DNA from: Desulforapulum autotrophicum
Lineage (GTDB): Bacteria > Desulfobacterota > Desulfobacteria > Desulfobacterales > Desulfolunaceae
Assembly: GCA_020723285.1 (NCBI GenBank)
Contig: DYJE01000001.1
Span: forward strand, 497,509-561,508
Length of the DNA stretch: 64,000 nucleotides
Reading direction: 5' to 3'
Position numbers and translations under genes: made by a program. The first letter of the stretch is position 1. Each line of letters starts with the position of its first letter. Below, piece by piece: positions 5,978 through 41,558 of the stretch. The notes beneath the pieces are model-generated. The model was given only the letters and a program-made list of their open reading frames with translations, was not told the origin of the DNA and searched no databases.

Positions 5978-5989
5978 CAACGATGCCTC

Positions 5990-9780: not shown

Positions 9781-9805
9781 GGCGGAGACTGTTTACCGGA
9801 TTGGC

Positions 9806-16722: not shown

Positions 16723-17549
16723 CAGTCACCTGCAAGAATTTCAGTCCGGGCTTGTTCAAACATCTCGTCGGTCACTATGAAATAATGCCATTTCAGTTCA
16801 TCTTCCATAAATGAAACCCCCTTGCCCTTGGTGGTTTTCATAATGACGGCCGAGGGGCCTTCCGCTTTTTCCGTTAACGCAAACGCCTTTTCCATGGACT
16901 GAAAATCGTGCCCGTCCGCGATCACAGCCTTCCAGCCGAAGGCCTCCCATTTTTCGTCAAGATTATGGAAATGCATGATTTCCGTAGGACGTCCGTACCC
17001 TTGAAGATTGTTGAAATCGATGATGGCTGTCAGGTTGTCCACGCCCAGTGCCGGAGCCATCATGGCTGCTTCCCAGACAGAACCTTCCTGAATTTCCCCG
17101 TCCCCCATAAGGACATAAACACGGCCGGGGATGCCCTTTTTTTTCAATCCGTGTGCCAGACCAAGACCCATGGGAAGTCCATGACCAAGAGAACCGGCCG
17201 AAACCTCGATATGGGATGATGTCAGTTTATCCAGATGGGCGGGAAGTGTGCCCTTGTCCTGCATGTACCCGTCGATGGCTTCCTTTGAAAGGAGTCCTTT
17301 TTCATGGAGCGTGGCGTAAAGGGCCATGGCCCCGTGCCCCTTGCTCAGGATGAACCGGTCTTTAAAAGGCGAATCCGCAGGTTCTCCGTCAAACATCAGT
17401 TTGTTGAAATACAGGTAGGCCAGGATGTCCACAATGGAAAGCGACGATCCCACATGGGCGCTTTTGGACCGTCTGGCCATGTCGAGAAGGGTGATACGGA
17501 TATTCGCCGCCCGCTCACGCAGCGTCTGTTGCAGCCTGAGTTGCATCAT
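16722..17549 (-). CDS. Transketolase, N-terminal subunit
   Basis: 275 residues from ATG 17549, which has AAAGG 5 bases upstream; a TTG at 17570 is possible but less good. The TPP diphosphate-binding motif is GDGEIQEGSVWEA, followed by IIDFNNLQGYG. SKGHGA supplies a conserved His, and HIEVSAGSLGHGLPMGLGLA is family-typical. Together with the next gene it makes one alpha2beta2-type transketolase. The split form is usual in archaea and some Gram-positive bacteria and also occurs inside sugar-biosynthesis loci. It overlaps the FkbM gene by 35 bases and the C-terminal subunit gene by one base. Confidence 0.87.
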   Translation of the reverse strand: MMQLRLQQTLRERAANIRITLLDMARRSKSAHVGSSLSIVDILAYLYFNKLMFDGEPADSPFKDRFILSKGHGAMALYATLHEKGLLSKEAIDGYMQDKGTLPAHLDKLTSSHIEVSAGSLGHGLPMGLGLAHGLKKKGIPGRVYVLMGDGEIQEGSVWEAAMMAPALGVDNLTAIIDFNNLQGYGRPTEIMHFHNLDEKWEAFGWKAVIADGHDFQSMEKAFALTEKAEGPSAVIMKTTKGKGVSFMEDELKWHYFIVTDEMFEQARTEILAGD

Positions 17550-24337: not shown

Positions 24338-26212
24338 CTATAAACTGTAAGCGGACAACCGGGCCAGTGCGTCTATAAATCCTTTGCATTGCTGAAGATG
24401 CCCGCGCCAGATTTCCGGCACAAAGGTGCCGTCGTATTTTGAAAACAGGGGCATGACTCTCTCAAAGTCGATATCGCCCTCTCCGATCTGGACACCTTCG
24501 CCGTCAAGGCCGTATCCGTCGGCGAAGTGGATATGCCGGATATAAGGGTAAACCGTTTGGATATAGGTTGTCAGATCTTCGTTTTTTGCATTGCAGTAAA
24601 GAGCCGCGTGGGACAGGTCAAAGCAGATGTTCATCCCGGTTTCTTCACAAAACGAGGCGACATCCTCGGCGCTCATGAAATAATTACCTTTCCAGGCCCC
24701 CCCGAAATACCAGGGATAAGGAGGAAGGTTTTCAAACAGGACCTCGAATCCTGCGATTTCCATTTCTTCGACCGACTTGAGAAGCTTATTTTTCATCACC
24801 ATCGTGTCAAGTTTTGTATTCAGGCTCATGGCTCCGGGGTGAACGATGATTTTTGGCAAAGCGCCGTTAAAAAATGGAGCCAGATCACGGGTTATCCTGA
24901 CGGTTCTTGCAAACACGTCCAGTGACGCCTTTCGGATGTCCTCGTCTTCGGAGCACAGGTCAAACAGACGGTCGCCCATGTATTCCGGAGAATGGACAAC
25001 AAGGGACTGAGTGTAATTTTTCCGAGGGGTGAAGGTCCTGTCCAGATCCTTGTCGGTAAAATGGAATTCGACGACTTTCGGCTGGTACGTCATGATTTCA
25101 TCGATATCGTCGTAACGGGCAATCAATCCCCAGGAAGCCCTGAACCCGCTTGTCATGGCCATCATCTCTGTTTCCGAGATGTCGTTTTCCGTAAAACACG
25201 TCCCCTTTTCGATGAATCGCACGGCCTTTCTGCCCACCAGATCTTCTATCCGAGACGGGGGAAGCCCCTTGCCTGGCCCCAGAACCGTTAACTGATCACG
25301 GGCAATCGTATCCCCGGGATGAATATCGCACGCCGCGAAAAGGCTTTTTCCGAACAATTCGCGATTGAGAACCTCTCCGCGAAGCAGGTAGCGCTGTTCC
25401 TTTCCCATGGCCTGGTCCGCGACCCCGATGTCCCGGACCATCCGGTTCAACTCATAGGGTTCAAGGCTGATCTTGTGATCCGGCCCGTTCATGGACTTGT
25501 CCAGAGTGATGTGCTTTTCGATGATACAGGCCCCCATGGATGCCGCAACAAGCGGTATGACGATGCCCATGTCGTGACCGGAGTATCCCACCGGAACGCC
25601 GAAGGTTTTAAGCTTTTCGATCATTTTGAGGTTCACTTCCCTTGGCCAGACGGGATAGGAACTTCGACAATGGAGAAGCGCAAATTTCGCGCTTCTCCGT
25701 TTCAGCTGGGCCACCGTTTTTTCGATTTCCTCCCAGTAGGACATGCCCGTCGACACAATGAGGGGTTTTCCAGTTCCTGCGATAAAATCAATAAGAGCGT
25801 AGTTGTTCAGATCCGCTGAGGCGATCTTGAACGCCGGAACGCCGATACGTTCAAGGAAAGCGGCGCTCGGGATATCGAAAGGAGTGCAAAGAAAGGTTAC
25901 CCCCCGTGATTCACAGTATTTTTTGATGTCTTCCACCTGCTCCTCGGTCAGTTCAACCGTTTTAAGGAGAGGAATCATGTATTGAAAATTCTGTTCGTAT
26001 CGTCCGGTATTCTCAAGAACATCCGGGCTGTAAAGGCTTGACAGGCAACGTTTCTGGAATTTCACGGCGTGAACCCCCGCCTTGACCGCAACATCGACCA
26101 GACGTTTTGCGGTATCGGGATCTCCGTTATGGTTAATCCCGATCTCGGCGATGATATACGTGGGCTGATCGCTGCCGATCCGGGTTCCGTTTATGGTGAT
26201 GGATTCCGTCAT
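24338..26212 (-). CDS. NeuB-family nonulosonic acid synthase fused to a TIM-barrel (AP-endonuclease-2-like) domain
   Basis: 624 residues from ATG 26212, 4 bases after the upstream stop. Residues 1-280 are a sialic/pseudaminic/legionaminic acid synthase barrel: YIIAEIGINHNGD, HAVKFQKR, IVSTGMSYW, VGYSGHDMG, IIEKHITLDK, GPDHKISLEP. An SAF/antifreeze-like domain follows (SLFAACDIHPGDTIARDQL, about 290-350). The remaining 260 residues are a second barrel of the sugar-phosphate isomerase/AP_endonuc_2 type (KIIVHPGAMS, VLFENLPPYPW, CFDLSHAALY, IRHIHFADG, FVPEIWRGH). NeuB enzymes condense PEP with a six-carbon amino sugar; the extra barrel could make or edit that sugar. The other nonulosonate genes (dehydratase, aminotransferase, CMP-transferase) are not in the window. 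Confidence 0.85.
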   Translation of the reverse strand: MTESITINGTRIGSDQPTYIIAEIGINHNGDPDTAKRLVDVAVKAGVHAVKFQKRCLSSLYSPDVLENTGRYEQNFQYMIPLLKTVELTEEQVEDIKKYCESRGVTFLCTPFDIPSAAFLERIGVPAFKIASADLNNYALIDFIAGTGKPLIVSTGMSYWEEIEKTVAQLKRRSAKFALLHCRSSYPVWPREVNLKMIEKLKTFGVPVGYSGHDMGIVIPLVAASMGACIIEKHITLDKSMNGPDHKISLEPYELNRMVRDIGVADQAMGKEQRYLLRGEVLNRELFGKSLFAACDIHPGDTIARDQLTVLGPGKGLPPSRIEDLVGRKAVRFIEKGTCFTENDISETEMMAMTSGFRASWGLIARYDDIDEIMTYQPKVVEFHFTDKDLDRTFTPRKNYTQSLVVHSPEYMGDRLFDLCSEDEDIRKASLDVFARTVRITRDLAPFFNGALPKIIVHPGAMSLNTKLDTMVMKNKLLKSVEEMEIAGFEVLFENLPPYPWYFGGAWKGNYFMSAEDVASFCEETGMNICFDLSHAALYCNAKNEDLTTYIQTVYPYIRHIHFADGYGLDGEGVQIGEGDIDFERVMPLFSKYDGTFVPEIWRGHLQQCKGFIDALARLSAYSL

Positions 26213-26216
26213 CGTT

Positions 26217-27248
26217 CTATGCCTGCATCCTTCCACAGGGTTTAACAGCCTTTCGCCCGTGAGCCCGGCCACCCCGTGTCCCCATGTTCTTTTCCAGTTT
26301 CCCGCGCCAATCGTTCAACAGGTCTTCAAGTGTTGTCCGGATAGGGATCTCCGGCATCCAGCCGGTTGCCCTGTAAAATTTTGCGAAATCGCAACGGAGT
26401 TCCGGAACATCCGAAGGCCTCATTCTTTCCGGATCCTCTTCCACGGTAATATCCACATCACTGAAATCAAGAATCATTTCAAGAATTTCTTTGATACTGT
26501 ACGCCACGCCGGACCCGACATTGTACACTTCGCCGGGTTCACCAAAACGGACGGCCAGTTCATACGCCTTCACGATATCGCGAATATCCGAGAAATCACG
26601 TTTCGCGGAAAGATTACCCACCTTGATCACCGGTTCCTTGAGTCCGAGTTCGATTTCAGCAATCTGTTTTGCGAAACTCGATGTGGCGAAAACTTCACTC
26701 CGTCCCGGACCGGTGTGATTAAAAGAGCGGGTTCTTATGATCTTCAGCCCGTAATTATGGAAATACTGAAAACCCAGGGCGGACTGGGTGACTTTGCTGA
26801 CCCCGTAAGGGCTCATGGGCCTCAGGGGGTTCAGCTCGGACACGGGCAGCTCTGTCTCGTAAACAAGCCCGTATTCCTCGGAACTTCCCGGAACCAGAAC
26901 CACCGTTTCAAAGCCGTCCAGAAGACGCAGGGATTCAAAAAGATTCAACTCCGGGGTGATGTTGTTAAGAATCGTATCCTGGGGCGAATTCCAGCTCTGC
27001 TCCACACTGCTCTGGGCTGCAAAATGGAAAATGAAGTCGGGCCGTACCGTTTTCAGGAGCCTCGTAACCGAATAGGGATCGCGAAGTTCGCAGTTATGGA
27101 GCGTGACATGTTTTTCAAGGTCCGCGATATTCTCCCTGGAACTCCGCCATCTCAAAGTCCCGTGAAGCTCGTAGCATCCTGACAAAAGAAGATTCCGTGC
27201 CATGTGACTTCCCGCCATACCTGTGATTCCTGTGATCAAAGCTTTCAT
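26217..27248 (-). CDS. NAD(P)-dependent SDR, GDP-mannose 4,6-dehydratase/reductase-like
   Basis: 343 residues from ATG 27248, 10 bases after the regulator's stop, with GAGAG about 8 bases upstream. It has TGITGMAGSHMARNLL (residues 6-21), HFAAQSSVEQSW, the Ser in VLVPGSSEEYG, YGVSKVTQSALG as an intact YxxxK, and SFNHTGPGR, all typical of extended SDRs acting on GDP-sugars. The short LHGTLRWRSS segment fits a GDP-mannose dehydratase/RMD type better than UDP-glucose epimerase. The product is probably a 4-keto-6-deoxy or reduced GDP-sugar for this glycan. The last 20 residues are basic and may be a disordered tail. Confidence 0.8.
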   Translation of the reverse strand: MKALITGITGMAGSHMARNLLLSGCYELHGTLRWRSSRENIADLEKHVTLHNCELRDPYSVTRLLKTVRPDFIFHFAAQSSVEQSWNSPQDTILNNITPELNLFESLRLLDGFETVVLVPGSSEEYGLVYETELPVSELNPLRPMSPYGVSKVTQSALGFQYFHNYGLKIIRTRSFNHTGPGRSEVFATSSFAKQIAEIELGLKEPVIKVGNLSAKRDFSDIRDIVKAYELAVRFGEPGEVYNVGSGVAYSIKEILEMILDFSDVDITVEEDPERMRPSDVPELRCDFAKFYRATGWMPEIPIRTTLEDLLNDWRGKLEKNMGTRGGRAHGRKAVKPCGRMQA

Positions 27249-27258
27249 GCTGTGTCTC

Positions 27259-27912
27259 TCATAACGTTGCGAGTTTCTTGATGGCGATCCCGTCCTTGAC
27301 AAGATTCTTGAGATACGCGTAAATCTCTTCCTGCCGGGCGAAAGAGGTGATGATCACACCGTCCGGCTTGATTTTCACCACATCCTCCGGTTTTCTCACT
27401 TTCAGTCCGTTAAAAAACGTGCCCTGTTTTTCCTCGGCGTTGTCCACGACTCCGATGACCACGAGGTCCGTGTCCTTGATGGCTGCGTGGACGATCTCCG
27501 CCGTTTCAGCAGCGCCGAAAAGGACCACGGTCCTTATACCTTCTTCGTAGATACAGTTCAGGATATTCCGGATCTCTTTTTTAACAGCAGAATAAAGCTG
27601 AACAATTTCAGCGGAATATTCCAGGAGCGAGCGTGTCAGTAGGCCCCGGCCTTTTTCCGTGAGAAAATAGTTCTGGGTTCTGTTTGTGTTGCCGGTAACC
27701 GTGATCAGTTTTTGGCCTTTAAAAAACTTGATGTAGTTGTTCACCATGGAACTGCTCAGCTTCGTCTGTTCTCCGATATCGCTCTGACTGTTGTCGGGCG
27801 ATTCATTGACTGCGAAAAGCACGGAAAGGCACCGAAACTCTTTCGTCGGTAAAAGGTATTTTGAATGAAAAGGCTCTATCATGGTTTCCTGAGAATCCTT
27901 TTGACCGTTCAT
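27259..27912 (-). CDS. Winged-helix (MarR/EPS-type) regulator fused to a Rossmann-like module
   Basis: About 217 residues. The N-terminal 90 residues are a winged-helix DNA-binding domain (FRCLSVLFAVNES, IGEQTKLSSSMVNNYIKFF as recognition helix, NYFLTEKGRGLL as wing), like the MarR-type regulators found at the head of exopolysaccharide operons. The C-terminal part has VVLFGAAETAEIVHAAI, VIGVVDNAEEKQG, FNGLKVRKP and DGVIITS, the same nucleotide-binding module carried by enzymes of this locus. It is the first gene of the 27.9-kb leftward operon and probably controls it, perhaps by sensing a nucleotide sugar. ATG 27912 has no clear ribosome site; GTG 27930 is the alternative. Confidence 0.75.
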   Translation of the reverse strand: MNGQKDSQETMIEPFHSKYLLPTKEFRCLSVLFAVNESPDNSQSDIGEQTKLSSSMVNNYIKFFKGQKLITVTGNTNRTQNYFLTEKGRGLLTRSLLEYSAEIVQLYSAVKKEIRNILNCIYEEGIRTVVLFGAAETAEIVHAAIKDTDLVVIGVVDNAEEKQGTFFNGLKVRKPEDVVKIKPDGVIITSFARQEEIYAYLKNLVKDGIAIKKLATL

Positions 27913-27942
27913 TGAATAAATATAAAGCACCAGACCACGAAT

Positions 27943-28107: not shown

Positions 28108-31100
28108 CTATCCCCGTCCTTCGATTTCCCGGATTCGCCTCATGGCCAGCTCATTGGTTCTGTCTGCCCGAATCACGGCCTTGTAGGCCATGACCGCGGA
28201 TTCCTGCATTCCCATGGCCAGATAAACGTCACCGATCTTCCGGATCACGTCCGTCCTTGAAGGAAGGGAGGACACGCACATTTCATAAGCACTGATGGCC
28301 TGACGGTGGTCACCTTCCCCGAACAGAACGTCCCCGATCTCCTCCCACAGTTCTGCAGCACCGGAATCCAGCTCAACCGCCCTTGAGAGAACGCGGAGAG
28401 CCTGGTCTCTCTTGTCAAGTGAAAACAGAATCTTGGCGAGATAAAAGAGAATATGGGAATCGTCGGCCTCTTCCTGGGGCAGGGATTCCAGATATGCAAG
28501 GGCCCCTTCAAGACCGGCCATCTTTTCACGAATGACGGCCCGTACCGGATGATAATCCCGCAAGACGGCCCGTGTGGATTCCCATTCAAGGCACAGGGAT
28601 TCGGCTTTTTCAAACTCACCGCCATCGAGAAACAATTCAATCATTGAACAGTCTTCATGCCATCGTTCAAGGACAAAATCCGAAAGCCAGGCTTTGTCTT
28701 TTTTAATAAGAATACTCGGGTCATGATTGACGGATGCGAGCAGACAGCTGGATCCAAATAGTTTATCACCCGATTCAACAAATATTTTTCCGGTGAAATA
28801 ATAATACCAGGAAAGAAAATGCAGGGGGCGATATTCCTCCATATCCTGTATCATCGTTCCATTTCGGAAGGCTTCGAGGACCCGGCCGATCCATGGATAA
28901 TCGGATTCTTCGACAAATATTCCGTTTAAAAGCTCTCTGGCACGTTCCATGTTTCCGGTTCTGAAATACAGGAGACAGGCCGTCAACCGGAAATTACAGA
29001 AGACACCTTCCGTTGTTTCAAGCAATCCCTGAAGGATTTCAAGGCCCAGTGAAATATCGTTCCGGTACAAGGCGATCATGGCGGAATCATGGGCTATAAT
29101 CCCCTTTTCACCGATTCTTGCAACGGTTTCCTTTTCCACCTCCCCAGCAAGAAAGATCATCCGTTGGGCCCCTTCCAAATCCCCCCTGCCGAGCCGAGTC
29201 CATGCTTTGAGATTCAACCATTCAGGGACAACACGTTCAATTATGCCCCACGCATTGAGCATCGTTTCAGTTTCAGTCAGTTCCTGTTCCGATATTCTCC
29301 GCTGGAGAATCTTGCCAGGCAAAAAACCGATATTCAGCCTGAACAGTTCCTGGACAGCCCGTTTCGCCCAGGCTTCCTTACGTGCGAAATCAACAAGATC
29401 CTTGACCCAGGTTCCTTCCGGCAAAAAACGTGTTTCCCCAATGACCAGAAAAAAATGACGCTTTAAAAAAAAGTCACGACCGGAACAGACCCACTGTTTT
29501 TCAATGGACTTTCTGAGAAATCCGAGTCCCCTCCCACGTTCACCCCGGTGAAGAAGCAATATGGCGAAGATGCCCTGCATAACTTCGTCTTCAATGGGAT
29601 TGAGCCTGTTTGCTTCGTCCATTTCATCGAAAGCCGAAGGGTAATCCCCTGAATCAAGAAGCACCATAACACGGCTCGCCAGCCTGTCTCTTGCAGCGGC
29701 AACGGCCTTTTCATTCTGCCTGTCGAGTTTCAGAGCGCGGTCGATACAGATTTTCCTGTATGAATTCGGACCTTCCTCATTGAGCAGCATGCCGATCGTT
29801 TTCATCTTGAACGTTTCGATGAGATGACCCAGTCCTTCATCCTTGGAAAAAGCGCTCTGAAAACATGCCGTCCCGTCTTCAACAGCTCCCGCCGTAACGC
29901 GCAGACACCCTTCGTAAAATTCCTTTAAAGGATGATCTCCGGTTTTTGATAAGAGTTCACCGGCCTTGACGAGATAACGGTGGTCGATCAGCATGTCCAG
30001 ACAGCCGGTCAGCCTGGTATCGCCCGTCTGGCCCCAAGAAAGCCCGTCATCCGAAAGAATCGTTTCCGTTAACCGGATGAACCCATGGGCTGCGCCCGAC
30101 AATTCAGAAAGAAGGGTCACGGCCTTTTTCCTGATTTCCTGAACAAAAGCCTGTTGTTTCAAAGCCGCGGCGAAACGGCGGCCCGGAGATAAAGACTCTG
30201 CCGCCACATCCATCTCGGCTTTGAGATATTCGTCATAATACTCTGTAAATACACAGGTCAGACTGGACATCAGGGGAGATTGATCAAGGGCCCTGCTGAT
30301 CCTGTCCATAGTCCCGGCGGATTTTCCTACAGCTCGTGGCAGGGACGAAGGGTCTGGCATGCGCTCTCCAATGGATTTCATATAGCTGTCGACAACGTTC
30401 AGTTCTTTCTCGTAAAGAGTGATCTGATCCATCAGCCCGCCAAGATCCTTTTCAATGGATTCGAGCTGTGAAAGAACGACCTTGAGGCCAGGGACATCTC
30501 TGCAAGGAAGGTTGCCCCGCATGTCACAGGTTCTGAAACAATGAACAGACAGGGTTTCTGCAAGGGAAAGGATTTCCGTCCCCTTGATTTTCGCCCCCCC
30601 CTCGGTGGCGTCGATGAACGTTCTGCCACCGGCCGTCGCGATCATCCGCTCGCAGATCTCCTTTGCCGCCACAAACCCGTGTGTGCTTTCGACCATGGTC
30701 CCGTCAACGCCCATAACCATGACATTCCCCATGGCCTTGGCCTGTTCTCCATTCCAATGAAGAATGGTTCCTGCCGCATGGTCGCTTTTCCCCGCAAACG
30801 CCAGATCAAGCCCCGTAAAAATAATGGGATCACACCCTGCGGTCAACGCCGCCGAAATTGCGAGATGAACCACGGAATGAACATCTTCCAGGGCATCTCC
30901 GTCCGTTTTCAGCAGACGGTTGAAGAGATCTCTAAGGCCCTTGTCCGGAAAACTGAAGTACCTGTTCCTGAAACGGATCCCATTTAAAATTTTCGATGTG
31001 ACCGCTGGAATGTACACAAGATCCGTTCCCCCGAGGTTTTCGACGAAAGGTGCAAGCTTTTCATACGTGAATTCGTTGTAATCCACAGAAACAACAGCAT

Positions 31101-33765
31101 GGGGCGTAATCCCCCTTTCCATCAGCGGGGCCAAGGCCGAATCCACGGCAATGATCCACGCTTTTCCTCCGGCTCTTTCCAGTTCTCCGATGTTCTTCGA
31201 CAGAGAAGGCCCCGAAGCCACGACAATGGCGGGAATCCCTTTCATGGTATCGTTGAGGGTCTTCAGCGGATGGGATTCCGCAAGCCCCATGAGGTTTTCG
31301 AAACTGTTACCGAGAAAGCGCCTGCCTGCAGCCATGGCGGTTTTCAAAGAAAGTCTCCGCCGTGATAGGTACTGCTCAAACACCTCCCGCCGTGATGCAT
31401 ACCATTCTGGCGCAAGGGCCGTAAACTGGCCGAATTCGATCAGTTCCCTTCCATGGTTTGTATAGAGCCCGTCATCATCAGAACCGATCAGATCGTAGGG
31501 GTCGGATATTGGCCCCACGGCAAACCGGGCATGGGGATGGGCGACGATGTCCGTGATATCCAGACTCTCAAGTGACGCTTTCAAAATCTCGGGATGGGCT
31601 TCAAAAAAAACGACCAGATTCCGAGCCCCGGCTATTTCAAGTATAGCCCGTGCGTGAACGAACATCCCGTCTCCCATGACACAGACCACTTTCCCCCTGA
31701 CGTCTTTCAGCCTGTTTTGAATGGCGTGAAATTCCTTTGTGATCCCTTGGGTTCGCATGACGATTTCACCATCATTCCCTTTTTTGAAACGAAGGACAGG
31801 AATTCCTTGTGGTGAAAACGATACTGAAGTTTCTTGAAGTTCAATTCCGCTGAGAAGGGTTTCGATTCCGGGGTGAAAACGCTTTAAGGCCGCAATGTTA
31901 TTTTCAAGGACATCCTTTCGTATACATTCATCCACCACCTGATTTGAGCCTGTCTGACGTTCCACCCATTCCACCCACATGCCCCTGAATGCGTATTCGA
32001 GTTTTTCAGTGAAAGCCACGGGGTTCATCAAGGATGAACGGCTCATTCTTTCACGCAGAGTTGATCGATACCCTTGGAGGTGTTCCGCGTTCCGGGCCAG
32101 TGCCACGGCTTTTTCAACATAGTCATCGGCCGTTGCCGCCACACAGCTGTCAAGCCCGGCATGACGCAGAAGACTCGCACCCACCCGGGATGCGTGGTTG
32201 TTTCCTTCCAGTGCGATAACGGGCACGCCCATCCACAGCGCTTCGCAGGTGGTGGTGGTGCCGTTGTAAGGGAAGGTGTCCAGGGCGATATCCACCGTGT
32301 TGTACAGCAGAAAATGTTCCTTAAGGGAGACCTTGTAGCCCTCGAACCAGATCCGTTCCGATGGAACCCCATGGTGGGCGAAGCGTTCCAGTATGAACTT
32401 CCTCGTGCCGAAATCCGAAAAAGACCTGGATTTCAGCTTGAGCCTTGAGCCTTCGGCCTGTTTCAGAATCCTGGCCCACACCGCGATCACGCGCTCCGAG
32501 ATTTTGGAGTTGTTGTTGAACGAGCCGAAGGTGACGGCTCCCGTTTTCATGAATGGCGGCGCGGATATGGGGTAAGACTCCCCCGAAGGCCGGTAACAGT
32601 GAAAACCACCGGCAAGCCGGATCAGTTTTTCCGATGAAAGCCTGTCCGACTCTCCAGGCGGATCGGCCAGAGCGTCGGTGATGCGGTAATCCATGGTTTT
32701 AAGACCGGTGGTATCGGGGTATCCAAGCCATGCCACCTGAATGGGCGCGGGTTTCCGGGCGAATATCAGAATGCGGCTGTTCCGGGTGTGTCCGGCGAGG
32801 TCCACCAGGATGTCGATACGGTCTTCCCGGATCATGCGGCAGGCATCGTCATCGGATAAAAGGCTGACATCACGCCAGTTGTCAGACAGTTCACGGAACC
32901 TTTGGGTAAAATCATCCTTCTTGTCCGAACAGGAATAACAAAAAATCTCGAATTTATCCTTGTTATGTGCCGCCATCACATCTTCCAGGAAATACGCCAC
33001 GGAATGGGTTCTGAAATCCGGGGAGACGTACCCGATCCGCAGCCGCCTGAAACGGTCCCTGTCATTGTCGAACACCGGATTGTCAGGGTAGTGTTTTTCA
33101 GCAAATGACGAAGCCCAGGCCGCATGCTCGTCGAAAATCTGCTCCGGCGTCACGGTGTCGCTGAAATGAAGGGAATACAGGTAATTGGAATGGGCGTCCT
33201 GAAAATCAGGATTGATTTTCAGGGCTTCCTTGTAGGCCCACATGGCTGTGACAATCCTTCCCTGTTCGCAGAACACACGGCCCAGATTGTAATACGCCGG
33301 TGAAAACCCGGGGTCTTTGCGGCAGGCTTTTTCGAAACACACCACGGCTCCATCCATATCCCCCTGTTCATGGAGCATGGTTCCCAGGTTGTTGCTGGCA
33401 GACACACAGTCGGGGTCCACCCGGAGGGCTTCCCGGTAGGCTTTTTCGGCATCCTTGGATAGACCCATTTCCCGGAACACGTTGCCCAGGTTGTTGTGAA
33501 ACATGGCGCCCATAGGGTAAGCCTGAATGGCCTTTTTAATCAAAACCAGGGCCTTGTCGTGTTCGCCCCGCTCAAGGTAAATGGTGCCCAGAAGGTTCAG
33601 GGCGTTGGAGTTTCGGGGGTCCTGGCGGATAATCCGCAAGTACAGCTCCTCGGCCCGGACATCGTCACCTTTGACATGGAGCCCGTAGGCTGTTTCAAAA
33701 AGGGATGTGATGTCCTGGGAGCGTTTGCCCGCCGACGGGCTTTTCCGTTTCTGTTTTTTACTCAT
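28108..33765 (-). CDS. Giant TPR - GT41/SPINDLY - Maf (DUF115) - TPR fusion, probable flagellin glycosyltransferase
   Basis: About 1885 residues. TPR repeats fill residues of about 25-200 (ALNLLGTIYLERGEHDKAL, MFHNNLGNVFREMG, ASNNLGTMLHEQGD). Residues 240-620 are an O-GlcNAc-transferase/SPINDLY domain: RIGYVSPDFRTHSVAYFLED, AWLGYPDTTGLKTMDYRITD, LDTFPYNGTTTTCEALWMG, GNNHASRVGASLL. Residues of about 650-1090 are a Maf/DUF115 domain (AIVVASGPSLSKNI, ITPHAVVSVDYN, IIFTGLDLAFAG, ILSLAETLSV). The last 750 residues are mostly helical with TPRs at the very end. GT41 enzymes O-glycosylate Ser/Thr; Maf proteins put nonulosonic acids on flagellin. The position 6 kb from fliC fits both. ATG 33765 overlaps the upstream stop by 8 bases; ATG 33774 is the alternative. 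Confidence 0.85.
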   Translation of the reverse strand: MSKKQKRKSPSAGKRSQDITSLFETAYGLHVKGDDVRAEELYLRIIRQDPRNSNALNLLGTIYLERGEHDKALVLIKKAIQAYPMGAMFHNNLGNVFREMGLSKDAEKAYREALRVDPDCVSASNNLGTMLHEQGDMDGAVVCFEKACRKDPGFSPAYYNLGRVFCEQGRIVTAMWAYKEALKINPDFQDAHSNYLYSLHFSDTVTPEQIFDEHAAWASSFAEKHYPDNPVFDNDRDRFRRLRIGYVSPDFRTHSVAYFLEDVMAAHNKDKFEIFCYSCSDKKDDFTQRFRELSDNWRDVSLLSDDDACRMIREDRIDILVDLAGHTRNSRILIFARKPAPIQVAWLGYPDTTGLKTMDYRITDALADPPGESDRLSSEKLIRLAGGFHCYRPSGESYPISAPPFMKTGAVTFGSFNNNSKISERVIAVWARILKQAEGSRLKLKSRSFSDFGTRKFILERFAHHGVPSERIWFEGYKVSLKEHFLLYNTVDIALDTFPYNGTTTTCEALWMGVPVIALEGNNHASRVGASLLRHAGLDSCVAATADDYVEKAVALARNAEHLQGYRSTLRERMSRSSLMNPVAFTEKLEYAFRGMWVEWVERQTGSNQVVDECIRKDVLENNIAALKRFHPGIETLLSGIELQETSVSFSPQGIPVLRFKKGNDGEIVMRTQGITKEFHAIQNRLKDVRGKVVCVMGDGMFVHARAILEIAGARNLVVFFEAHPEILKASLESLDITDIVAHPHARFAVGPISDPYDLIGSDDDGLYTNHGRELIEFGQFTALAPEWYASRREVFEQYLSRRRLSLKTAMAAGRRFLGNSFENLMGLAESHPLKTLNDTMKGIPAIVVASGPSLSKNIGELERAGGKAWIIAVDSALAPLMERGITPHAVVSVDYNEFTYEKLAPFVENLGGTDLVYIPAVTSKILNGIRFRNRYFSFPDKGLRDLFNRLLKTDGDALEDVHSVVHLAISAALTAGCDPIIFTGLDLAFAGKSDHAAGTILHWNGEQAKAMGNVMVMGVDGTMVESTHGFVAAKEICERMIATAGGRTFIDATEGGAKIKGTEILSLAETLSVHCFRTCDMRGNLPCRDVPGLKVVLSQLESIEKDLGGLMDQITLYEKELNVVDSYMKSIGERMPDPSSLPRAVGKSAGTMDRISRALDQSPLMSSLTCVFTEYYDEYLKAEMDVAAESLSPGRRFAAALKQQAFVQEIRKKAVTLLSELSGAAHGFIRLTETILSDDGLSWGQTGDTRLTGCLDMLIDHRYLVKAGELLSKTGDHPLKEFYEGCLRVTAGAVEDGTACFQSAFSKDEGLGHLIETFKMKTIGMLLNEEGPNSYRKICIDRALKLDRQNEKAVAAARDRLASRVMVLLDSGDYPSAFDEMDEANRLNPIEDEVMQGIFAILLLHRGERGRGLGFLRKSIEKQWVCSGRDFFLKRHFFLVIGETRFLPEGTWVKDLVDFARKEAWAKRAVQELFRLNIGFLPGKILQRRISEQELTETETMLNAWGIIERVVPEWLNLKAWTRLGRGDLEGAQRMIFLAGEVEKETVARIGEKGIIAHDSAMIALYRNDISLGLEILQGLLETTEGVFCNFRLTACLLYFRTGNMERARELLNGIFVEESDYPWIGRVLEAFRNGTMIQDMEEYRPLHFLSWYYYFTGKIFVESGDKLFGSSCLLASVNHDPSILIKKDKAWLSDFVLERWHEDCSMIELFLDGGEFEKAESLCLEWESTRAVLRDYHPVRAVIREKMAGLEGALAYLESLPQEEADDSHILFYLAKILFSLDKRDQALRVLSRAVELDSGAAELWEEIGDVLFGEGDHRQAISAYEMCVSSLPSRTDVIRKIGDVYLAMGMQESAVMAYKAVIRADRTNELAMRRIREIEGRG

Positions 33766-35026
33766 GAAGTCCATTTCCCCGTTTTATTCCGATGGTGTCG
33801 ATGAGTGCGTCGAGCAGAAGAACCAGGTGTCGCCCTTCAAGACGGGCCACGCAAGGGGGATAATCGTAAAACAGACGCCGGCTTTCCTTTTCGTTGATAA
33901 ACGCCATGCCGGGACAGAGATCCCCGTCTTTCAAAGCGTGGACGTAACAGGGCGTGCGGCAGACCCCCTCAAGAAGGAATTCCACCTGAAGGGTTTCGCT
34001 GAACTTATAAGGCGCTGTCCGTTCTTCGGCGGTGACCACGTTGAACACCGACCCGCAAGGCCGGGCCAGGGCTTCGGCCAGATGGGTGATGCCCGAGTCG
34101 ACGGTGATGACCGCGTCGGAACGCGCGATGATCCGGCAAAGATCCCTGACATCCGCGATCAGACCTTCCGTACTCCTGACATGATTCGAATCCAGGGCCT
34201 TCAGGGCCTTTTCAATGTCCGGCCGTTTGAACGAGGACACCAGAAAGGCAAAACGGTCCTGTGCCGATGCGATGAATGCCATCAGGGTGTCCAGGGGCAG
34301 GTCCCTGACCCGGCCCGTGGACACGGCGTTCACGAAAACAAGGGGTTTGCCGCATTTTTTAAGGATTCCAATCGTTTCATCCACCAACCGCGAGCTGGGA
34401 GCCTCCCTGGCATAATCCGGCGAGATCCTGGGAACAGGCTCGCCTATGAGATCCGCCGGATGAAAAAAGAACCGGCTCATATAGAATTCCGGCGGATAAC
34501 AGCCGTTGTATTCCGGAACATGGGCGAAATGTTCTGCGTTCAGATAAAAATCAAAGCTTTTCATTTCATCGGTTTTCACCACCGGACCGGTGATGCGGTA
34601 AAACGATTCAAAATAAATCAGGGGATACCACTGTTCCGCCGAAGCGATGGACGGCCTCACGATCACCACCTCCATGCCCGGATATCGGGCTGAAAGCGCC
34701 CGGAGCGCCACCGCGAGGTACATCTGATCACCCAGGCCGTGCATGGGGAACACAACCAGCCGCCTGCCCGTAAGATCCTCCCCCTGATACTGTGGCGGAA
34801 GCCCCATGGACAGCCATTTTTCCTTTTGAATCTCCAGGTGATCGTGGTTTCCATGGTTCATGGTCAAAAGTCCCTGATACGGCAGATGAACCGGCACGAA
34901 GGGGCGGTCCAGACGGATTTTCCCGCTGGCCAGCTCGCGAGACAGGGCCATCCCCATTTCCGTGGAGATGAAAAGCCCCTGTTCATAGACCGTATCGCCC
35001 GAGTCCACGGGGCATAAAAATATCAT
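33758..35026 (-). CDS. GT9 (heptosyltransferase-like) glycosyltransferase
   Basis: 422 residues from ATG 35026, with AAAGG 7 bases upstream. It has GT9/heptosyltransferase landmarks: VVFPMHGLGDQMYLAVALRAL near residue 90, VFVNAVSTGRVRDLP, and SDAVITVDSGITHLAEAL with RPCGSVF near residue 310. A Cys-rich tail follows (VCRTPCYVHAL, DLCPGM, YPPC), shared with the next paralogue and unusual for heptosyltransferases. It is followed with an 8-base overlap by the giant GT41-Maf gene, so it should act in the same glycosylation pathway, perhaps extending a flagellin glycan. The sugar is unknown. Confidence 0.75.
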   Translation of the reverse strand: MIFLCPVDSGDTVYEQGLFISTEMGMALSRELASGKIRLDRPFVPVHLPYQGLLTMNHGNHDHLEIQKEKWLSMGLPPQYQGEDLTGRRLVVFPMHGLGDQMYLAVALRALSARYPGMEVVIVRPSIASAEQWYPLIYFESFYRITGPVVKTDEMKSFDFYLNAEHFAHVPEYNGCYPPEFYMSRFFFHPADLIGEPVPRISPDYAREAPSSRLVDETIGILKKCGKPLVFVNAVSTGRVRDLPLDTLMAFIASAQDRFAFLVSSFKRPDIEKALKALDSNHVRSTEGLIADVRDLCRIIARSDAVITVDSGITHLAEALARPCGSVFNVVTAEERTAPYKFSETLQVEFLLEGVCRTPCYVHALKDGDLCPGMAFINEKESRRLFYDYPPCVARLEGRHLVLLLDALIDTIGIKRGNGLHE

Positions 35027-35065
35027 CAAAAAGCCTTTATGATCTGATTCATGGTTTTTAGAATT

Positions 35066-36322
35066 TCACGGGTTTTTGGCGGTTGCCGGAAACAGCCCTT
35101 CAAGAGCGTCAAGAAGTTGACGCAAATGCTCTCCCCGGACATGTTCCATGCAGGGCGGATAGGCGTTGTATGACGATAATCCGTCTCCTTCATGGTTAAG
35201 GCATGAATTAGCAAATTTCATTCCAGGACAGAGTTCCCCATTTTCCAGGGCAAATACATAGCACGGCGTCCGGCAGATCCCTGGGATTTCGAATTCCACC
35301 CGGAGGGTTTCGCTGAAGCGGTAACAGGCGGTGCGTTCTTCGGGAAGGGCGGTGTTGAAGACGGTTCCGCAGGGTTTTTCAAGGGCTTCGGAAAGGTGGG
35401 TGATACCCGAATCCGTGGTGATCACATAATCCGACCGCCTGATGATCCCCATCAGGTCCGTGACATGGGTTTCAAGGTCGCCGGAGCACACAAAGGTTTC
35501 CATGTTCATGGACCGGATGATGTCTTCAAAGCCGGGGTTGTTGTATGTGGAAAAAATCACGGCGCAGCGGCCGCTGATGAGCCCGGCGAAGTCCATCACC
35601 GTGGCCATGGACAGATCCCTGGATCTGCCGGTGGACACCAGATTGACGAACACCACGATTTCTTTCAGGGACCGCAGTTTTTCAAATGTCCGGTCTATGG
35701 TTTCACTGTTCCTTTCATTCCCCGGAGAAAAAGCCGTGACCCTGGGGACCTTGACAGCCATGATCTTCGGACTGTGATGGAAAAAAGCCTCCATAAAAAA
35801 ATCGGCGGTATAGCTGCCCCTGAAACCCGGAAGATGGGCGAAATGCTCCGCGTCCACAAAAGCGTCGAAGGCCCGCATTTCACGGGCGCTCAGCACGCTC
35901 TCGGCCAGCCGGACATGGGGTTCGGAATAGATGTAGGGATACCATTTTTCAACCGAAGGAATTCCGGAACGGACCACGGTGATTTCAAGCCCTTCGTACC
36001 GTTGTGCAAGGGCGCGGAGAGCCACGGCCAGATAAAGCTGGTCTCCCAGGGCGTGCATGGGGAACACGGCGAGCTTTTTACGGGAAAGATCCTCTCCGGT
36101 GTAAAGGGGTGGCAGTCCTGCGGCGTTCCAGGCGCAGGCACTGGCTTCGTTCCGGTCATCGTCACCGTAATTGAGGCGGATCAGTCCCTTATACGGCAGG
36201 TGAACCGGATACAGCCTTTCGGTGAACCGGACCCCTGAAAGCTGGGTGGCCATATGGGTTGAAACAAAAAGTCCTCGGGTCAGATCGAACTCCGGTTTTT
36301 TGCCTGGACAAAGAAAAATCAC
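35066..36322 (-). CDS. GT9-like glycosyltransferase, tandem paralogue
   Basis: About 418 residues. I prefer GTG 36322 because GAGG lies 6 bases upstream and the protein then starts VIFLCP, lining up with MIFLCP of its neighbour; GTG 36334 is the other choice. Matching blocks run along the whole length: VHLPYKGL, LAVFPMHALGDQLYLAVALRAL, VNLVSTGRSRDLS, SDYVITTDSGITHLSEAL, ICRTPCYVFAL, LCPGMKF, YPPC. This points to a local gene duplication. The GT9 fold fits transfer of heptose or another sugar. It is probably part of the flagellin or surface glycan island. Confidence 0.75.
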   Translation of the reverse strand: MIFLCPGKKPEFDLTRGLFVSTHMATQLSGVRFTERLYPVHLPYKGLIRLNYGDDDRNEASACAWNAAGLPPLYTGEDLSRKKLAVFPMHALGDQLYLAVALRALAQRYEGLEITVVRSGIPSVEKWYPYIYSEPHVRLAESVLSAREMRAFDAFVDAEHFAHLPGFRGSYTADFFMEAFFHHSPKIMAVKVPRVTAFSPGNERNSETIDRTFEKLRSLKEIVVFVNLVSTGRSRDLSMATVMDFAGLISGRCAVIFSTYNNPGFEDIIRSMNMETFVCSGDLETHVTDLMGIIRRSDYVITTDSGITHLSEALEKPCGTVFNTALPEERTACYRFSETLRVEFEIPGICRTPCYVFALENGELCPGMKFANSCLNHEGDGLSSYNAYPPCMEHVRGEHLRQLLDALEGLFPATAKNP

Positions 36323-36344
36323 GCGCCGCCTCACTTGATTTCAT

Positions 36345-37109
36345 TCAGTTTTTCCGAAGGATCACCGCGCCTTTTTCCGTGTCCACGAACTCCGCCGTAA
36401 AGCAGGGCCATCGTTCCGTCCAGCGCCGGACCATGTCTTTTTCCCCTTCTCTTGCCGCGTCGTCCAGGAGCACCACCGCACAATCCGACAACCGGTCGAA
36501 AAAGAAAGGCAGCGAGGGATAACGGATGTCCGAACGTATGGACGCGGGTGGACCGTCGATGACCAGAAGGTCGATGGAATCGGGAAGAATGCCTGGGTTT
36601 ATGGCATACCAGATCCGTTCCTCCCCTTCGAAAACCTGGTTTTGAAGGGGGGCTTCGTGAACGGCCGCAACGGTTTCAAGTCCGTGAAGGACGAGGTTCC
36701 GCCGGGTGATCTCTGCGAAGGGCATGTCATGGTCTATGGACAGAAGCCTTCCTTTTCCGTTTTTTTCAAGACCGTATCCGCCCACAAGGGTTGACACCCC
36801 GCTGCCCAGCTCCACCAGGGTTTCGGGTTTCAGCTCCAGAATCAGAGAAATGAGGATTTTGACGAAATCCGGGGAAACCGGCCAGCCCCGCATGGTGGGC
36901 AAAGGATGCCGGATGCCGATAAGGGAAAAAATGGAGAACAATGCGTCGATCTGGGTGTAGATTGTGTTCTGCTGGGCGTAGATCTGCTGGTGATGGGCGG
37001 CGAGTTCCTCGATTTTTCCCGCCATGAGCCGCTGGTGGACGCTGAGATGCTCGACCAGGGTGCAGAGATCCTGAATGGTTTTGTCAGGGTTGTTTGGGGT
37101 GTCGCTCAT
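36345..37109 (-). CDS. SAM-dependent methyltransferase (class I, Methyltransf_24-like) with N-terminal coiled coil
   Basis: 254 residues from ATG 37109, with GAGG 9 bases upstream. Residues of about 15-60 are rich in Gln, His and Glu and look like a coiled coil. The methyltransferase part has LVELGSGVSTLVGGYGL (motif I, near residue 95), LLSIDHDMPFAEIT, IDLLVIDGPPA (motif with catalytic-type Asp) and AVVLLDDAAREG. This resembles the CmcI/Methyltransf_24 group that methylates small molecules or sugars. It begins the run of glycosylation genes leading to the GT41-Maf gene and probably methylates a glycan. Confidence 0.78.
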   Translation of the reverse strand: MSDTPNNPDKTIQDLCTLVEHLSVHQRLMAGKIEELAAHHQQIYAQQNTIYTQIDALFSIFSLIGIRHPLPTMRGWPVSPDFVKILISLILELKPETLVELGSGVSTLVGGYGLEKNGKGRLLSIDHDMPFAEITRRNLVLHGLETVAAVHEAPLQNQVFEGEERIWYAINPGILPDSIDLLVIDGPPASIRSDIRYPSLPFFFDRLSDCAVVLLDDAAREGEKDMVRRWTERWPCFTAEFVDTEKGAVILRKN

Positions 37110-37227
37110 GTGCACCGGCCTCTTTATGTTGATGAATGTTTAGATGAATATTAAATGATTAATGCTCGATGGCGACCGCTGGAACGGGTTTGACAGCTTC
37201 CGCTTTGGCGGAGGATTTTTGAACGTT

Positions 37228-37529: not shown

Positions 37530-39755
37530 TCAATCTACCGTCGACACCACAATCATCTCCGGTTTTTTACCGTCCATCCACAATGTCCACATGGCCGTCA
37601 GCGCCCGTTCGTAATGCCTGACAAAACGAGCCGTATCAAAAAGCGGTGCTGTTTCACGGTTCGCCTCCAGTTTTTTCTTCAGTGCGTCCAGACTTCCCGG
37701 CTCTTTGGCGAGACTTACGGCAAGATTTTTGTAGCTTTCAAGGCTTTCCGTCACCAGTTCGCTAAGGCCGATATGGGTGAGGATGCTGGCGGGGGCCCTT
37801 GAAATGAAATGATTCCCGCGTTTGGTGATCACGGGAACTCCGGCCCAGAGGGCGTCGCTGGTGGTGATGTGGCCGGACACCAGACGGGTGTCTAAAGCCA
37901 GATCCGCCAGTTTCAGACGGGCCAGATGTTCGGGTTTGGGCATCTTGTCCGAAAAGACCAGGCGCGATTCGTCAACGCCCTGTCTTGCGGCCTCGGCCTT
38001 CAGGTTCGTTTCCATGTGAGGATTTTCCCGCAAAAGCCAGATCACGCTGCCCGAAACGTCTTTGAGGATGTCCATCCACGCTCCGAACATCACGGGATCG
38101 ATTTTATACGCGGAATTGAAGGAACAGAACACAAAGCCCGTTTCGGGCAGACCGAAATCGGCGCGGGTGTATACCGTTGGGGCGATTTTCTGGTCCCGGT
38201 CGTTGATCTGGTAACACTCGGGCATGAGCACAAATTTCTCCGTGTAATTCACCTGGTCTTCCGGCGGGGTCATGATGCGGTCTGTGATGAAATAATCGAA
38301 AAACGACGCCTGCATGGAACCGGGAAAGCCCAGATACCTGACCTGAACCGGCGCGGGTCGCAACGCCGGAATCTCCATCACGCTTCCCAGGGTGTATCCG
38401 GTGAGATCGATGAGAATATCCACCCCATCCGTATGTATGACTTGGGCGGCGTCCACGTAGGACATATCCCGGATGTCTCTGAACAGGTCCGAGTCCGCTT
38501 CGATTTTTTTCCGGTAATCGCTGCCGTCGTCTTCACCGTAGGAATAAACATTGACGCTAAAACGGTCCCGGTCGTGACAGTTGAACAACCCGAGAACCAG
38601 ATGGGCATTGGGATGGTTCTTCACGTTGTTCGACAGGTATCCAAGGGTTATCCTTTCCTTTTCACTGTTCCCATCATACTGAAAAACAAGCCCCAGCTTC
38701 TTGATGAAATCCTGAAGCTGATCGCTCCAGTACGCCGTGACGCGCCTGGCATACTCCCCGTCTTCATCCCTCCCCAGACAGCTGAACGGAGCCTCGGGAC
38801 AGTCTCCGTTTTCCTCCATGGCCTTCAAAGCCAGCCTTTTCAGTAAGGCCCGATAATGTTCATAACGTTCAAAGTCGCACCACGACTCAAGAATAGATAC
38901 GATCTGCTGAAGGGCGTGGCCGTGGTCCTTTTTTATATCAACCGTTTCAACGAACATGGAAAAGGCTTCGTCAACCAGCCCGGCTGATCGCAGGACATCG
39001 GCAAGGCTGTACCGTGTTTCCGCCGAACCGGGCTCAAGGGTAAGGGCTCGTTCGTAGCATTCGGCGGCCCTGTTCCACGCCCTCTTTTTTTTGTGCGCAT
39101 TTCCAAGGTTGTTCAGGGCTTGGTAAAAATCCGGCAGCAGGTCTATGGCCTTCTCGAAACAGGGTATCGCATCATCAGGGCGGTTCAGTTTTAAATACAG
39201 GCAGCCCATGTTGTTGAAGGCTTCGGCAAAACCAGGGTCGATTTCCACAGCTTTGTTAAAAAAAACAAAGGCTTCTTCGGGACGGACGAACTCCATGGCG
39301 AGATTGCCCAGATTATTCCAGGCCGCCGCGTGATCCGCTTTAAGGACCAGGGTTTTTTCGTAATACGTGAAGGCATCTTCGTTCATGCCCAGGTTCTGAT
39401 ACATCAGGGCCGCCCGGTAAGAGGCCTCGTGGCAGTTCCTGTCCAGATTGAAGGCCCCGAGGTATTCATCCAGGGCTTTTTCATAGTTTCCACTTTCAGC
39501 GAGTATCAACCCCAGGTTGGTACGAAACAGAACACAGTCCGGAGCAAGGGCCACGGCTTTTGTCACCAGCTCATCCGCCTCGGCCAGCCGGCCCTCGTCA
39601 AAGGCCACAAGCCCCATGAGATGCCAGGCATCGGCATGGCACGGGTCCTGCTTTACTATAAGGCGGTACATGGCGAGGGCTTCTTTTTTAAGGCCATTCT
39701 GATGCAGCTCTATCGCGCGTTTCAGCTCGTTTTCGATGTCCATAGACCTTTTCAT
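37530..39755 (-). CDS. TPR - GT41/SPINDLY-type O-glycosyltransferase
   Basis: The 741-residue protein has eight or so TPRs in residues 5-290 (ADAWHLMGLVAFDEGRLAEA, AAWNNLGNLAMEFV, ALNNLGNAHKKK). A GT41 catalytic region (360-730) follows: ITLGYLSNNVKNHPNAHLV, VRYLGFPGSMQASFFDYFIT, FCSFNSAYKIDP and DALWAGVPVITKRGNHFISR. The stretch usually reading LDTxPxNGHTTT is LDTRLVSGHITT here, which differs from the GT41 domain of the giant neighbour. It probably O-glycosylates Ser/Thr of flagellin, since fliC is the divergent neighbour 340 bases away; other targets are possible. ATG 39755 or ATG 39743 (AAAAGG just upstream) may be the start. Confidence 0.82.
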   Translation of the reverse strand: MKRSMDIENELKRAIELHQNGLKKEALAMYRLIVKQDPCHADAWHLMGLVAFDEGRLAEADELVTKAVALAPDCVLFRTNLGLILAESGNYEKALDEYLGAFNLDRNCHEASYRAALMYQNLGMNEDAFTYYEKTLVLKADHAAAWNNLGNLAMEFVRPEEAFVFFNKAVEIDPGFAEAFNNMGCLYLKLNRPDDAIPCFEKAIDLLPDFYQALNNLGNAHKKKRAWNRAAECYERALTLEPGSAETRYSLADVLRSAGLVDEAFSMFVETVDIKKDHGHALQQIVSILESWCDFERYEHYRALLKRLALKAMEENGDCPEAPFSCLGRDEDGEYARRVTAYWSDQLQDFIKKLGLVFQYDGNSEKERITLGYLSNNVKNHPNAHLVLGLFNCHDRDRFSVNVYSYGEDDGSDYRKKIEADSDLFRDIRDMSYVDAAQVIHTDGVDILIDLTGYTLGSVMEIPALRPAPVQVRYLGFPGSMQASFFDYFITDRIMTPPEDQVNYTEKFVLMPECYQINDRDQKIAPTVYTRADFGLPETGFVFCSFNSAYKIDPVMFGAWMDILKDVSGSVIWLLRENPHMETNLKAEAARQGVDESRLVFSDKMPKPEHLARLKLADLALDTRLVSGHITTSDALWAGVPVITKRGNHFISRAPASILTHIGLSELVTESLESYKNLAVSLAKEPGSLDALKKKLEANRETAPLFDTARFVRHYERALTAMWTLWMDGKKPEMIVVSTVD

Positions 39756-40091: not shown

Positions 40092-41558
40092 ATGGCACTT
40101 TCCGTAAACACCAACGTCGCATCCCTTAACGCCCAGAGAAACCTTGTGGGCACGGGGAGAAAACTCAACACAGCCCTTCAGAGACTCTCATCCGGTTACA
40201 GAATCAACTCCGCCAAAGACGACGCCGCCGGTCTCGCCATCACGGACCGAATGACATCCCAGGTCCGTGGTCTGACCCAGGCCGCGCGTAACGCCAATGA
40301 CGGTATATCCCTCGCCCAGACCGCTGAAGGCGCGCTCAACGAAACCACAGCCCTTCTTCAACGTATGAGGGAGCTGGCAATCCAGTCCGCCAACGACACC
40401 AACAGCGACTCCGACCGCCAGTCCATCCAGGACGAAGTGGTCAACCTCCAGTCAGAAATCGCCCGTATCGCCGACACCACCAGCTTCAACAACAAGAAGC
40501 TCCTGGATGGTTCGTTTGGTACGGCCAGTTTCCATGTGGGTGCCGAAGCCGGCCAGGTCATCACCGTTTCCACCGGTGACGCACGGGCCAACAAAATCGG
40601 CTCCTACAGACTGAGACTGGAAGGTAACGTCGGAACCGGTGCCTCGACGACTGCCGCAACTCAAGCCACCCGATGGAGTGGTGCTGACGTTGTCGTAAAC
40701 GGTTACCTGGGTTCAGCCACCGCATCTGTTGCCGTGGGTATTTCTGCAAAAGCTGCAGCAAGCGCCATCAACTCAAAAACAGTGGACACTGGCGTTACCG
40801 CCACAGCTGAAACCAAAGTAGAAATCAGCAGCATCGCTCAAGGCTCCTATTCCTTCGCTCTTTCAACAGGAACAGGCCAGACTGCCACTGTATCCGCTGC
40901 TGTATCAGGGACCGACCTGACCGACATGGTAGATGCCATCAACGACCACAGCGCCACCACCGGCGTTACGGCTACGCTGAATGAAGCTGAAGACGGCATC
41001 ATCATGAAGGACGCCGACGGAGACACCATCACCCTTCAACGGCTTGACCAGGTCAGCGACACCTGGACCACCAAAATGATCGGCGACGTCACGGAAGAAA
41101 GCATCAGCTCGCTGACCAGCGCCGCTGCTTCCGACACCGTGTCGTTCAGAGGCCAGGTTCTGATGGAATCTGAAAAATCATTCTCCATCGGATCTAGCGG
41201 GGCAGGTGCCGACGCCGTGGCCAACGCCACATCCGCGTCACTGTCCCAGGTGGCCAGCATCGACCTGAAAGACCAGACCGGAGCCAACGACGCCCTGTCC
41301 GTCATCGACAAGGCCATTGCCAAGATCGACAGTATCCGAAGCAAGCTCGGTGCGGTTCAGAACAGGTTTGAATCCACCATCACCAACCTTACCAACGTTG
41401 CGGAGAACATCACGGCTTCACGGTCTCGAATCCTTGACGCCGACTTCGCAGTGGAAACGGCGGAATTAACCAAGGCCCAGATTATTCAGCAGGCCGGTAT
41501 CTCCATGCTGTCTCAGGCGAACCAGCTGCCTCAGTCAGCGTTGAGCCTGCTCCAGTAA
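40092..41558 (+). CDS. fliC: Flagellin
   Basis: The 488-residue filament protein has the usual D0/D1 ends: [37 protein letters not shown] and [10 protein letters not shown] at the N-terminus, and [38 protein letters not shown] and [14 protein letters not shown] at the C-terminus. The middle (about 190-400) is a variable Ser/Thr/Ala-rich outer domain, the likely place for O-glycans added by the GT41 and Maf proteins encoded upstream. It is secreted by the flagellar export system with no cleaved signal. The start is fixed by a strong ribosome site. A sigma-28 promoter precedes it and candidate CsrA sites lie in the leader. Confidence 0.97.

Follow-up and report, generated by a model that had tools for sequence, protein, structure and literature searches.

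A SPINDLY-type GT41 domain and a Maf domain in one predicted polypeptide from a flagellin-linked gene run of Desulforapulum autotrophicum

To our knowledge, the Maf flagellin glycosyltransferases known so far are stand-alone proteins. Flagellin glycosylation systems are usually described as relying on a single transferase family each.

Maf works on flagellin within the cytoplasm (PMC4065374). Its central domain has been described as CstII-like in PMC11339370, where accession PF01973 is named Maf_flag10. SPINDLY (SPY) from Arabidopsis (PDB 7y4i), composed of TPRs and a GT41 domain, is a plant nucleocytoplasmic O-fucosyltransferase that takes GDP-fucose as donor and acts on Ser of protein (PMC9715652). 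FlmG of Caulobacter consists of TPRs and a GT-B transferase and its TPR part binds flagellin; it has one catalytic domain, needs pseudaminic acid and belongs to an organism without Maf (PMC7591256). According to the same authors, each flagellin sugar is transferred in the cytoplasm as a single unit, from a soluble donor. In enterobacterial flagellin islands, GT41 proteins of the SPINDLY family are found in flagellin loci, most of them also containing a methyltransferase domain, and GT2, GT25 and GT41 appeared mutually exclusive in each strain; Maf as a protein is absent from the text of that paper (PMC4875605).

The DNA analysed here, a stretch of 64,000 nucleotides (hereafter the window), contains a gene whose predicted product combines these elements (Table 1). 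With the Maf proteins of Magnetospirillum (5mu5), Aeromonas (Maf1) and Clostridium botulinum it shares the PF01973 core and the predicted full-length fold, but a TPR-GT41 part precedes the Maf domain and a long TPR-like region follows it. Compared by sequence with SPINDLY, it has the same TPR and GT41 arrangement and active-site residues, whereas the plant enzyme has no Maf. As in the enterobacterial islands, a GT41 protein of SPINDLY type occurs in a flagellin locus. Each half was known already, and the GT41-Maf pairing appears new; in the literature searched (open papers, most subscription papers lying outside it) no report of such a fusion was found.

Table 1. Coordinates of the fusion gene, its parts and its neighbours in the window, and of a second fusion in another genome
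Feature	Position	Strand	Remarks
Fusion gene, TPR - SPINDLY-type GT41 - Maf - long TPR-like C-terminus	28108..33765	minus	1885 aa
N-terminal TPRs	33166..33723	minus	about residues 15-200
GT41 domain, SPINDLY type	31957..33066	minus	residues 234-603
Maf domain	30238..31917	minus	residues 617-1176; PF01973 core 30793-31305
C-terminal all-helical TPR-like region	28111..30408	minus	residues 1120-1885; Pfam TPRs towards the end
NeuB-type nonulosonate synthase, SAF and extra xylose-isomerase-like barrel	24338..26272	minus	Pfam
GDP-sugar reductase/dehydratase-like (Rmd-like) protein	26217..27302	minus	closest solved: GDP-6-deoxy-D-lyxo-4-hexulose reductase
Protein with winged-helix and C-methyltransferase C-terminal-like matches	27259..27930	minus	kept in sister locus
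GT9-like glycosyltransferase	33758..35029	minus	last codons overlap fusion start
Second GT9-like protein	35066..36334	minus	Pfam none at 1e-5; heptosyltransferase I weak, under cut-off
Methyltransferase	36345..37115	minus	PF13578
GT41b, separate TPR-GT41 protein, OGT type	37530..39755	minus	tree
Flagellin FliC, presumed acceptor	40092..41558	plus	divergent from glycosylation genes
Maf-TPR-GT41 fusion of a second genome, reverse order	L046 1557-6017 (G649:C46)		profiles

The preliminary description had proposed, from the sequence alone, a single polypeptide of about 1885 residues, which is confirmed. The minus-strand frame 33774-28108 comprises 1888 codons with zero internal stops, for which the chance is about 10^-38 given the base composition. 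Its likely start is the ATG at 33765, with a GGGG stretch 11 bases upstream. A break of the frame between the domains, or a middle region without a DUF115 match, had been named as what would overturn that proposal; the frame is open through the junction, by which a frameshift as the source of the fused frame is ruled out, and Glyco_transf_41 and PF01973 both exceed their Pfam cut-offs within it. With our own profiles, GT41 extends over residues 234-603 and Maf over 617-1176 of the protein (in the stop-to-stop frame, whose first residue lies 6 positions earlier, 240-609 and 623-1182). Third-position G+C is 0.66 in the TPR-GT41 part, 0.52-0.57 across Maf and the middle region, and 0.61 towards the C-terminus; the change-point, codon 528 (z 5.45; the 99% level in shuffles is 3.56), lies near the GT41/Maf junction and not on it. 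A pattern scan of genome contigs with the whole fusion protein gave zero matching stretches.

The GT41 motifs noticed earlier at about residues 240-620 correspond to a Glyco_transf_41 match (PF13844; E 1.5e-58, 198.8 bits, cut-off 25), and among solved proteins the whole chain comes closest to Arabidopsis SPINDLY (phmmer E 9.3e-148, residues 30-620). The eight SPY residues compared, taken from the active site described in the structure paper (PMC9715652), are all kept: D491, H495, S496, N661, K665, H728, Y744 and T748; human OGT differs from SPY at S496 and Y744. A quick tree with 56 rows puts the domain together with Arabidopsis SPY, in a group that counts 41 rows and has support 87 (not starred), a placement that holds for the group and not for a position within it. 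Since the Thermobaculum protein 5djs has Tyr744 too, this residue alone leaves the donor unfixed; nor does the GT family fix it, since FlmG, a TPR-GT enzyme, needs pseudaminic acid. The difference in donors between the two domains, as first suggested, is kept in a refined form: the GT41 domain is of SPINDLY type, with a plant relative using GDP-fucose, and not of OGT type. The model for HMW1C-type N-glucosyltransferases (NF049992) gives the fusion 33.7 bits, below its cut-off of 1000.

The Maf part is matched by PF01973, listed by Pfam as MptE-like, at residues 821-991 (E 1.9e-31, 109.6 bits, cut-off 34.6). Maf_flag10_N (PF20157) is absent among the matches listed, which cover 25 of 28 Pfam families, and sequence matches to the PDB are weak (8sd5 MptE, 0.015; 5mu5 Maf, 0.072). 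A 31-row alignment that combined window proteins with those of fetched loci gave a model of pLDDT 87.8 and pTM 0.84. In Foldseek the top match of this model is 5mu5 (E 3.1e-18), followed by MptE and SteA and then by CMP-sialyltransferases with E just above 0.001. VIA-align gives Z 27.7 with 5mu5 (rmsd 5.3, 481 residues aligned, model 3-565), and 15.1 with MptE, 11.0 with SteA and 10.1 with CstII. From the match of this model to 5mu5 and the CstII-like central domain of the literature, the part looks like a complete Maf with N-terminal, central and C-terminal domains, going beyond the shared core. The Maf domain expected at about residues 650-1090 is thus present, its extent being longer than had been proposed. 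The GMGLGY stretch of the Maf consensus reads GDGMF in the window, with both invariant glycines of the stretch kept, and all 14 columns invariant among 31 Maf domains, of which the window is one, are conserved. With the PseD model (NF050051) the Maf part reaches 67.5 bits, far under the cut-off of 670.

TPR families are found by Pfam at both termini, as previously described, and the C-terminal helical TPR-like part spans about 700 residues. Residues 1120-1885 are predicted to be purely helical (pLDDT 78.8, pTM 0.56, seven-row alignment), and Foldseek with this model finds helical repeat proteins, OGT and SPY among them; the TM-scores are low, so that the claim is limited to the fold class.

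Related to the gene neighbourhood, the fusion had been placed next to fliC; more exactly, four genes that run in its own direction lie upstream, between it and the divergent fliC, which starts at 40092 and is followed by fliD (a name read from sequence). The central region of the window FliC (residues 171-400) contains 63 Ser/Thr in 230 residues, so candidate acceptor sites are ample. GT41b, one of the four genes, groups with human OGT (11 rows, support 99, quick tree) and departs from SPY at four of the eight active-site residues. The best match of the Rmd-like protein is GDP-6-deoxy-D-lyxo-4-hexulose reductase (E 1.8e-79), with GDP-heptose 4,6-dehydratase second; the LegB model gives it 128 bits under its cut-off. 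Two GMD genes, both passing the cut-off, are found elsewhere in the genome. NeuB is the sole PF03102 match in the genome, lies about 2 kb from the fusion and falls under the NnaB and PseI equivalog cut-offs. Further downstream come a protein without Pfam match and then GmhA-like, HldE-like and GSU2086-family proteins. About 50 kb away there are a candidate PseF-like CMP-nonulosonate synthetase (97.9 bits, cut-off 205.7) and a PseC-like transaminase (252.4 bits, cut-off 423.5). Assigning donors to the window's genes through curated models failed, the relevant equivalogs being below their cut-offs. By Pfam, the GT41 active-site residues and the Maf model, the two glycosyltransferase modules first seen in this run are both apparently intact.

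Eight genomes of the family, the window's included, were searched, and matches were obtained in two: the window's and a sister genome (G017). Its locus resembles the window in fliC (63%), fliD (65%), the GT9-like (49%), winged-helix (57%) and HldE-like (73%) proteins and NeuB (39%), and a GT41 of the OGT group is also present. The Maf-TPR protein of the sister genome (1324-aa frame) aligns from fusion residue 618 to the end, without GT41, and the next closest Maf relatives (loci L025 and L039) also have no GT41 part. It is therefore most likely, judging from these alignments, that the GT41 part was gained in the window lineage. Nor does the sister genome have a close counterpart of the GDP-sugar reductase-like gene: the best match there is 38%, not closer than the GMDs of the window's own genome are. 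The NeuB-SAF protein is fused in the window to a xylose-isomerase-like barrel, and the NeuB frame of the sister genome (312 aa) matches the NeuB part only.

Of 389 genomes of the order that were surveyed, 85 carry PF01973. Eighty of these were searched for GT41 (E 1e-10 or better), the Maf-model frames of the other five (273-311 aa) being too short for both domains, and 21 have it. The two domains are at most 20 kb apart in 10 of the 21 genomes (8 of 19 without the two fusions described here); by rough arithmetic, chance would place them so in a few per cent. In two of the remaining 11 genomes they are farther apart on the same contig and in nine on different contigs.

In two of the 80 genomes, the window's and G649, GT41 and Maf share one frame. 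A search for the same fusion thus provided a second GT41-Maf fusion, in reverse order and with a GT41 that falls in the OGT group of the quick tree. The G649 frame, of 1487 aa, has Maf at 23-592, TPRs at about 876-1066 and GT41 at 1124-1486; it divergently adjoins a 1268-aa frame matching flagellin, and its family differs from that of the window. In the Maf tree G649 is in a clade of 13 rows (support 99) and the window in a clade of four (support 100). Because of the reversed order, the different Maf clades and the OGT grouping of the G649 GT41, the two fusions are most likely independent as far as sequences tell, the domains having been joined at least twice.

Profiles were also run on the 2783 frames of at least 120 aa that the collected loci contain; GT41 was found in 49, Maf in 153 and both in three, namely the window's frame and that of G649, which counts twice because two of the loci overlap there. 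The commonest length of a Maf frame is about 600-660 aa. In 79 named Maf loci (from the best 80 of 104 matches, with at least four records from the window's order) the Maf frame is always without GT41, and in two of them a neighbouring frame has it: L082, which is the sister genome, and L085, which fits G040:C46. In the phylum sample Maf occurs in 56 of 297 genomes; beyond the order GT41 was sought in five longer Maf frames of this sample, and none contained it. The class-level sample almost wholly repeats that of the order, with at least one further Maf genome listed (G680, 994-aa frame). Fourteen fetched loci were searched with the window proteins and flagellin was found in five (L036, L037, L038, L054 and L064). 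It adjoins a SPINDLY-type GT41 gene in L036, L038 and L064 and is one gene away in L037; in L064 flagellin, SPINDLY-type GT41 and Maf are together in 7.5 kb.

Taken together, we consider it probable that the fusion is a cytoplasmic bifunctional O-glycosyltransferase, acting most likely on flagellin before export, with a GDP-sugar used by GT41, a CMP-nonulosonate by Maf, and separate Ser/Thr as acceptors. The TPR-like regions at both ends would grip the flagellin chain; the SPINDLY-type site would use a GDP-sugar, possibly a GDP-6-deoxyhexose (for instance GDP-D-rhamnose), to glycosylate some Ser/Thr, and at others the Maf site would attach a nonulosonate, supplied through the neighbouring NeuB, from its CMP form. 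We infer that both sites are active with these donors, that flagellin is the acceptor of two separate sugars and not of a two-sugar chain, and that one FliC binding event may be served by both active sites. This proposal is supported by the two Pfam families in one frame, the eight SPY residues and the Maf model; by NeuB and the distant PseF-like and PseC-like genes; and by the Rmd-like gene of the run, the two GMD genes, the G649 fusion and the 10 of 21 genomes with both domains within 20 kb; Maf action in the cytoplasm and flagellin binding by the TPRs of FlmG are precedents. The suggestion of the preliminary description, that two sugars in order or two kinds of sugar may go to the same flagellin, is partly supported: two apparently intact modules in a flagellin-linked run bear it out, and the G649 fusion beside flagellin and the unfused neighbours elsewhere also fit. 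Against the bifunctional reading, NeuB, the Maf part and the PseF-like and PseC-like proteins score under the cut-offs of their equivalog models; the Rmd-like gene could belong to a nonulosonate or heptose route instead, given its LegB score and second-best match; other transferases of the run, namely the two GT9-like proteins and GT41b, could add sugars; in 11 of 21 genomes Maf and GT41 were not seen within 20 kb of each other, nine of these having them on different contigs, and the fusion occurs in only two of 85 Maf genomes.

Among the alternatives, there is some chance, about equal to that of drawing one card in five, that a single chain is built, GT41 attaching the first sugar to Ser/Thr and Maf capping it with a nonulosonate, or the reverse. 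The joining of two sites favours a hand-over, both domain orders were fused in two lineages and the predicted Maf fold is like that of sialyltransferases acting on sugars; nevertheless, characterised Maf enzymes are said to modify Ser/Thr (PMC11339370) and SPINDLY acts on Ser (PMC9715652), so that separate sites seem the likelier arrangement.

It is rather unlikely that one domain is a binding or scaffold module and that a single sugar is attached. The departure of Maf from the consensus in its glycine-rich stretch and a sister locus existing without the fused GT41 part would agree with such a module, but the eight GT41 active-site residues compared and the 14 invariant Maf columns are all retained. 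We give a similarly low probability to the modification of a protein other than flagellin, for instance another secreted or surface protein. TPR-GT41 enzymes have many possible targets, and the contig also carries numerous further genes for glycans, methyltransferases and radical SAM proteins; against this stand the flagellar locus in both fused genomes, the flagellin genes adjoining or one gene from SPINDLY-type GT41 in four other genomes and the established role of Maf. Finally, an assembly or sequence artefact joining two genes is very improbable: the genome is a single one of 92 contigs, the G+C shift would also fit a chimera and the sister genome has no GT41 part, but the frame runs on through the junction and the gene is embedded in a contig of 677 kb, where synteny with the sister genome extends to either side of it.

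Returning to the bifunctional reading, two families with expected different donors, naturally fused at least twice, suggest a functional pairing, and point mutants of this single gene would allow the order in which two sugars are added, the sites chosen and the donors used to be dissected. A SPINDLY-type GT41, best known from the plant O-fucosyltransferase, is now seen in a bacterial flagellar setting, where the donor hypothesis can be tested. More speculatively, and with a probability we would set at little more than one in five, the protein may be a bacterial counterpart of SPINDLY that, as one enzyme, decorates a flagellin in a fixed arrangement with two chemically unlike sugars, a GDP-derived 6-deoxyhexose and a nonulosonate; this idea draws on a pairing that arose at least twice and on a GT41 part and an Rmd-like gene that are both absent from the sister locus.

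Some further observations were made. In the window, two adjacent transketolase-half-like genes lie in the glycan run at 15799-17570 (16722-17570 matches transketolase models and its neighbour is the second half by sequence reading). A PEP-utilising/PPDK-like protein and two radical SAM proteins are found at 3596-13187, and two large proteins, at 9806-11716 and 11523-13187, have no Pfam match at 1e-4. Several long Maf frames were considered as GT41-Maf fusions and rejected: G078 has two Maf cores and TPRs (1423-aa frame, open at the contig end; L034 1-4269, G078:C49), G087, G321 and G559 have Maf and TPRs, and G179 is a multi-domain glycan protein. The latter, a 2324-aa frame reaching the contig end (L043 803-7774, G179:C115), carries an FkbM-type methyltransferase, a Maf-type core, two further methyltransferases, a group-1 glycosyltransferase domain and three stretches of family-2 glycosyltransferase domains. 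Two giant single open frames with 11 GT41 domains each were also found, one of 8395 aa (L030 and L031; G115:C1, 6110238-6135422) and another of 8093 aa (L032 and L033; G032:C74); flagellin was sought in their fetched flanks and none matched. Although these genomes belong to different families, 10 of the 11 modules pair one-to-one between them, the last module being of OGT type, so the array is conserved. Further very long GT41 frames of the same order are those of G077:C631 (6568 aa), G454:C943 (5683 aa), G006:C438 (4843 aa) and G011:C218 (3835 aa).
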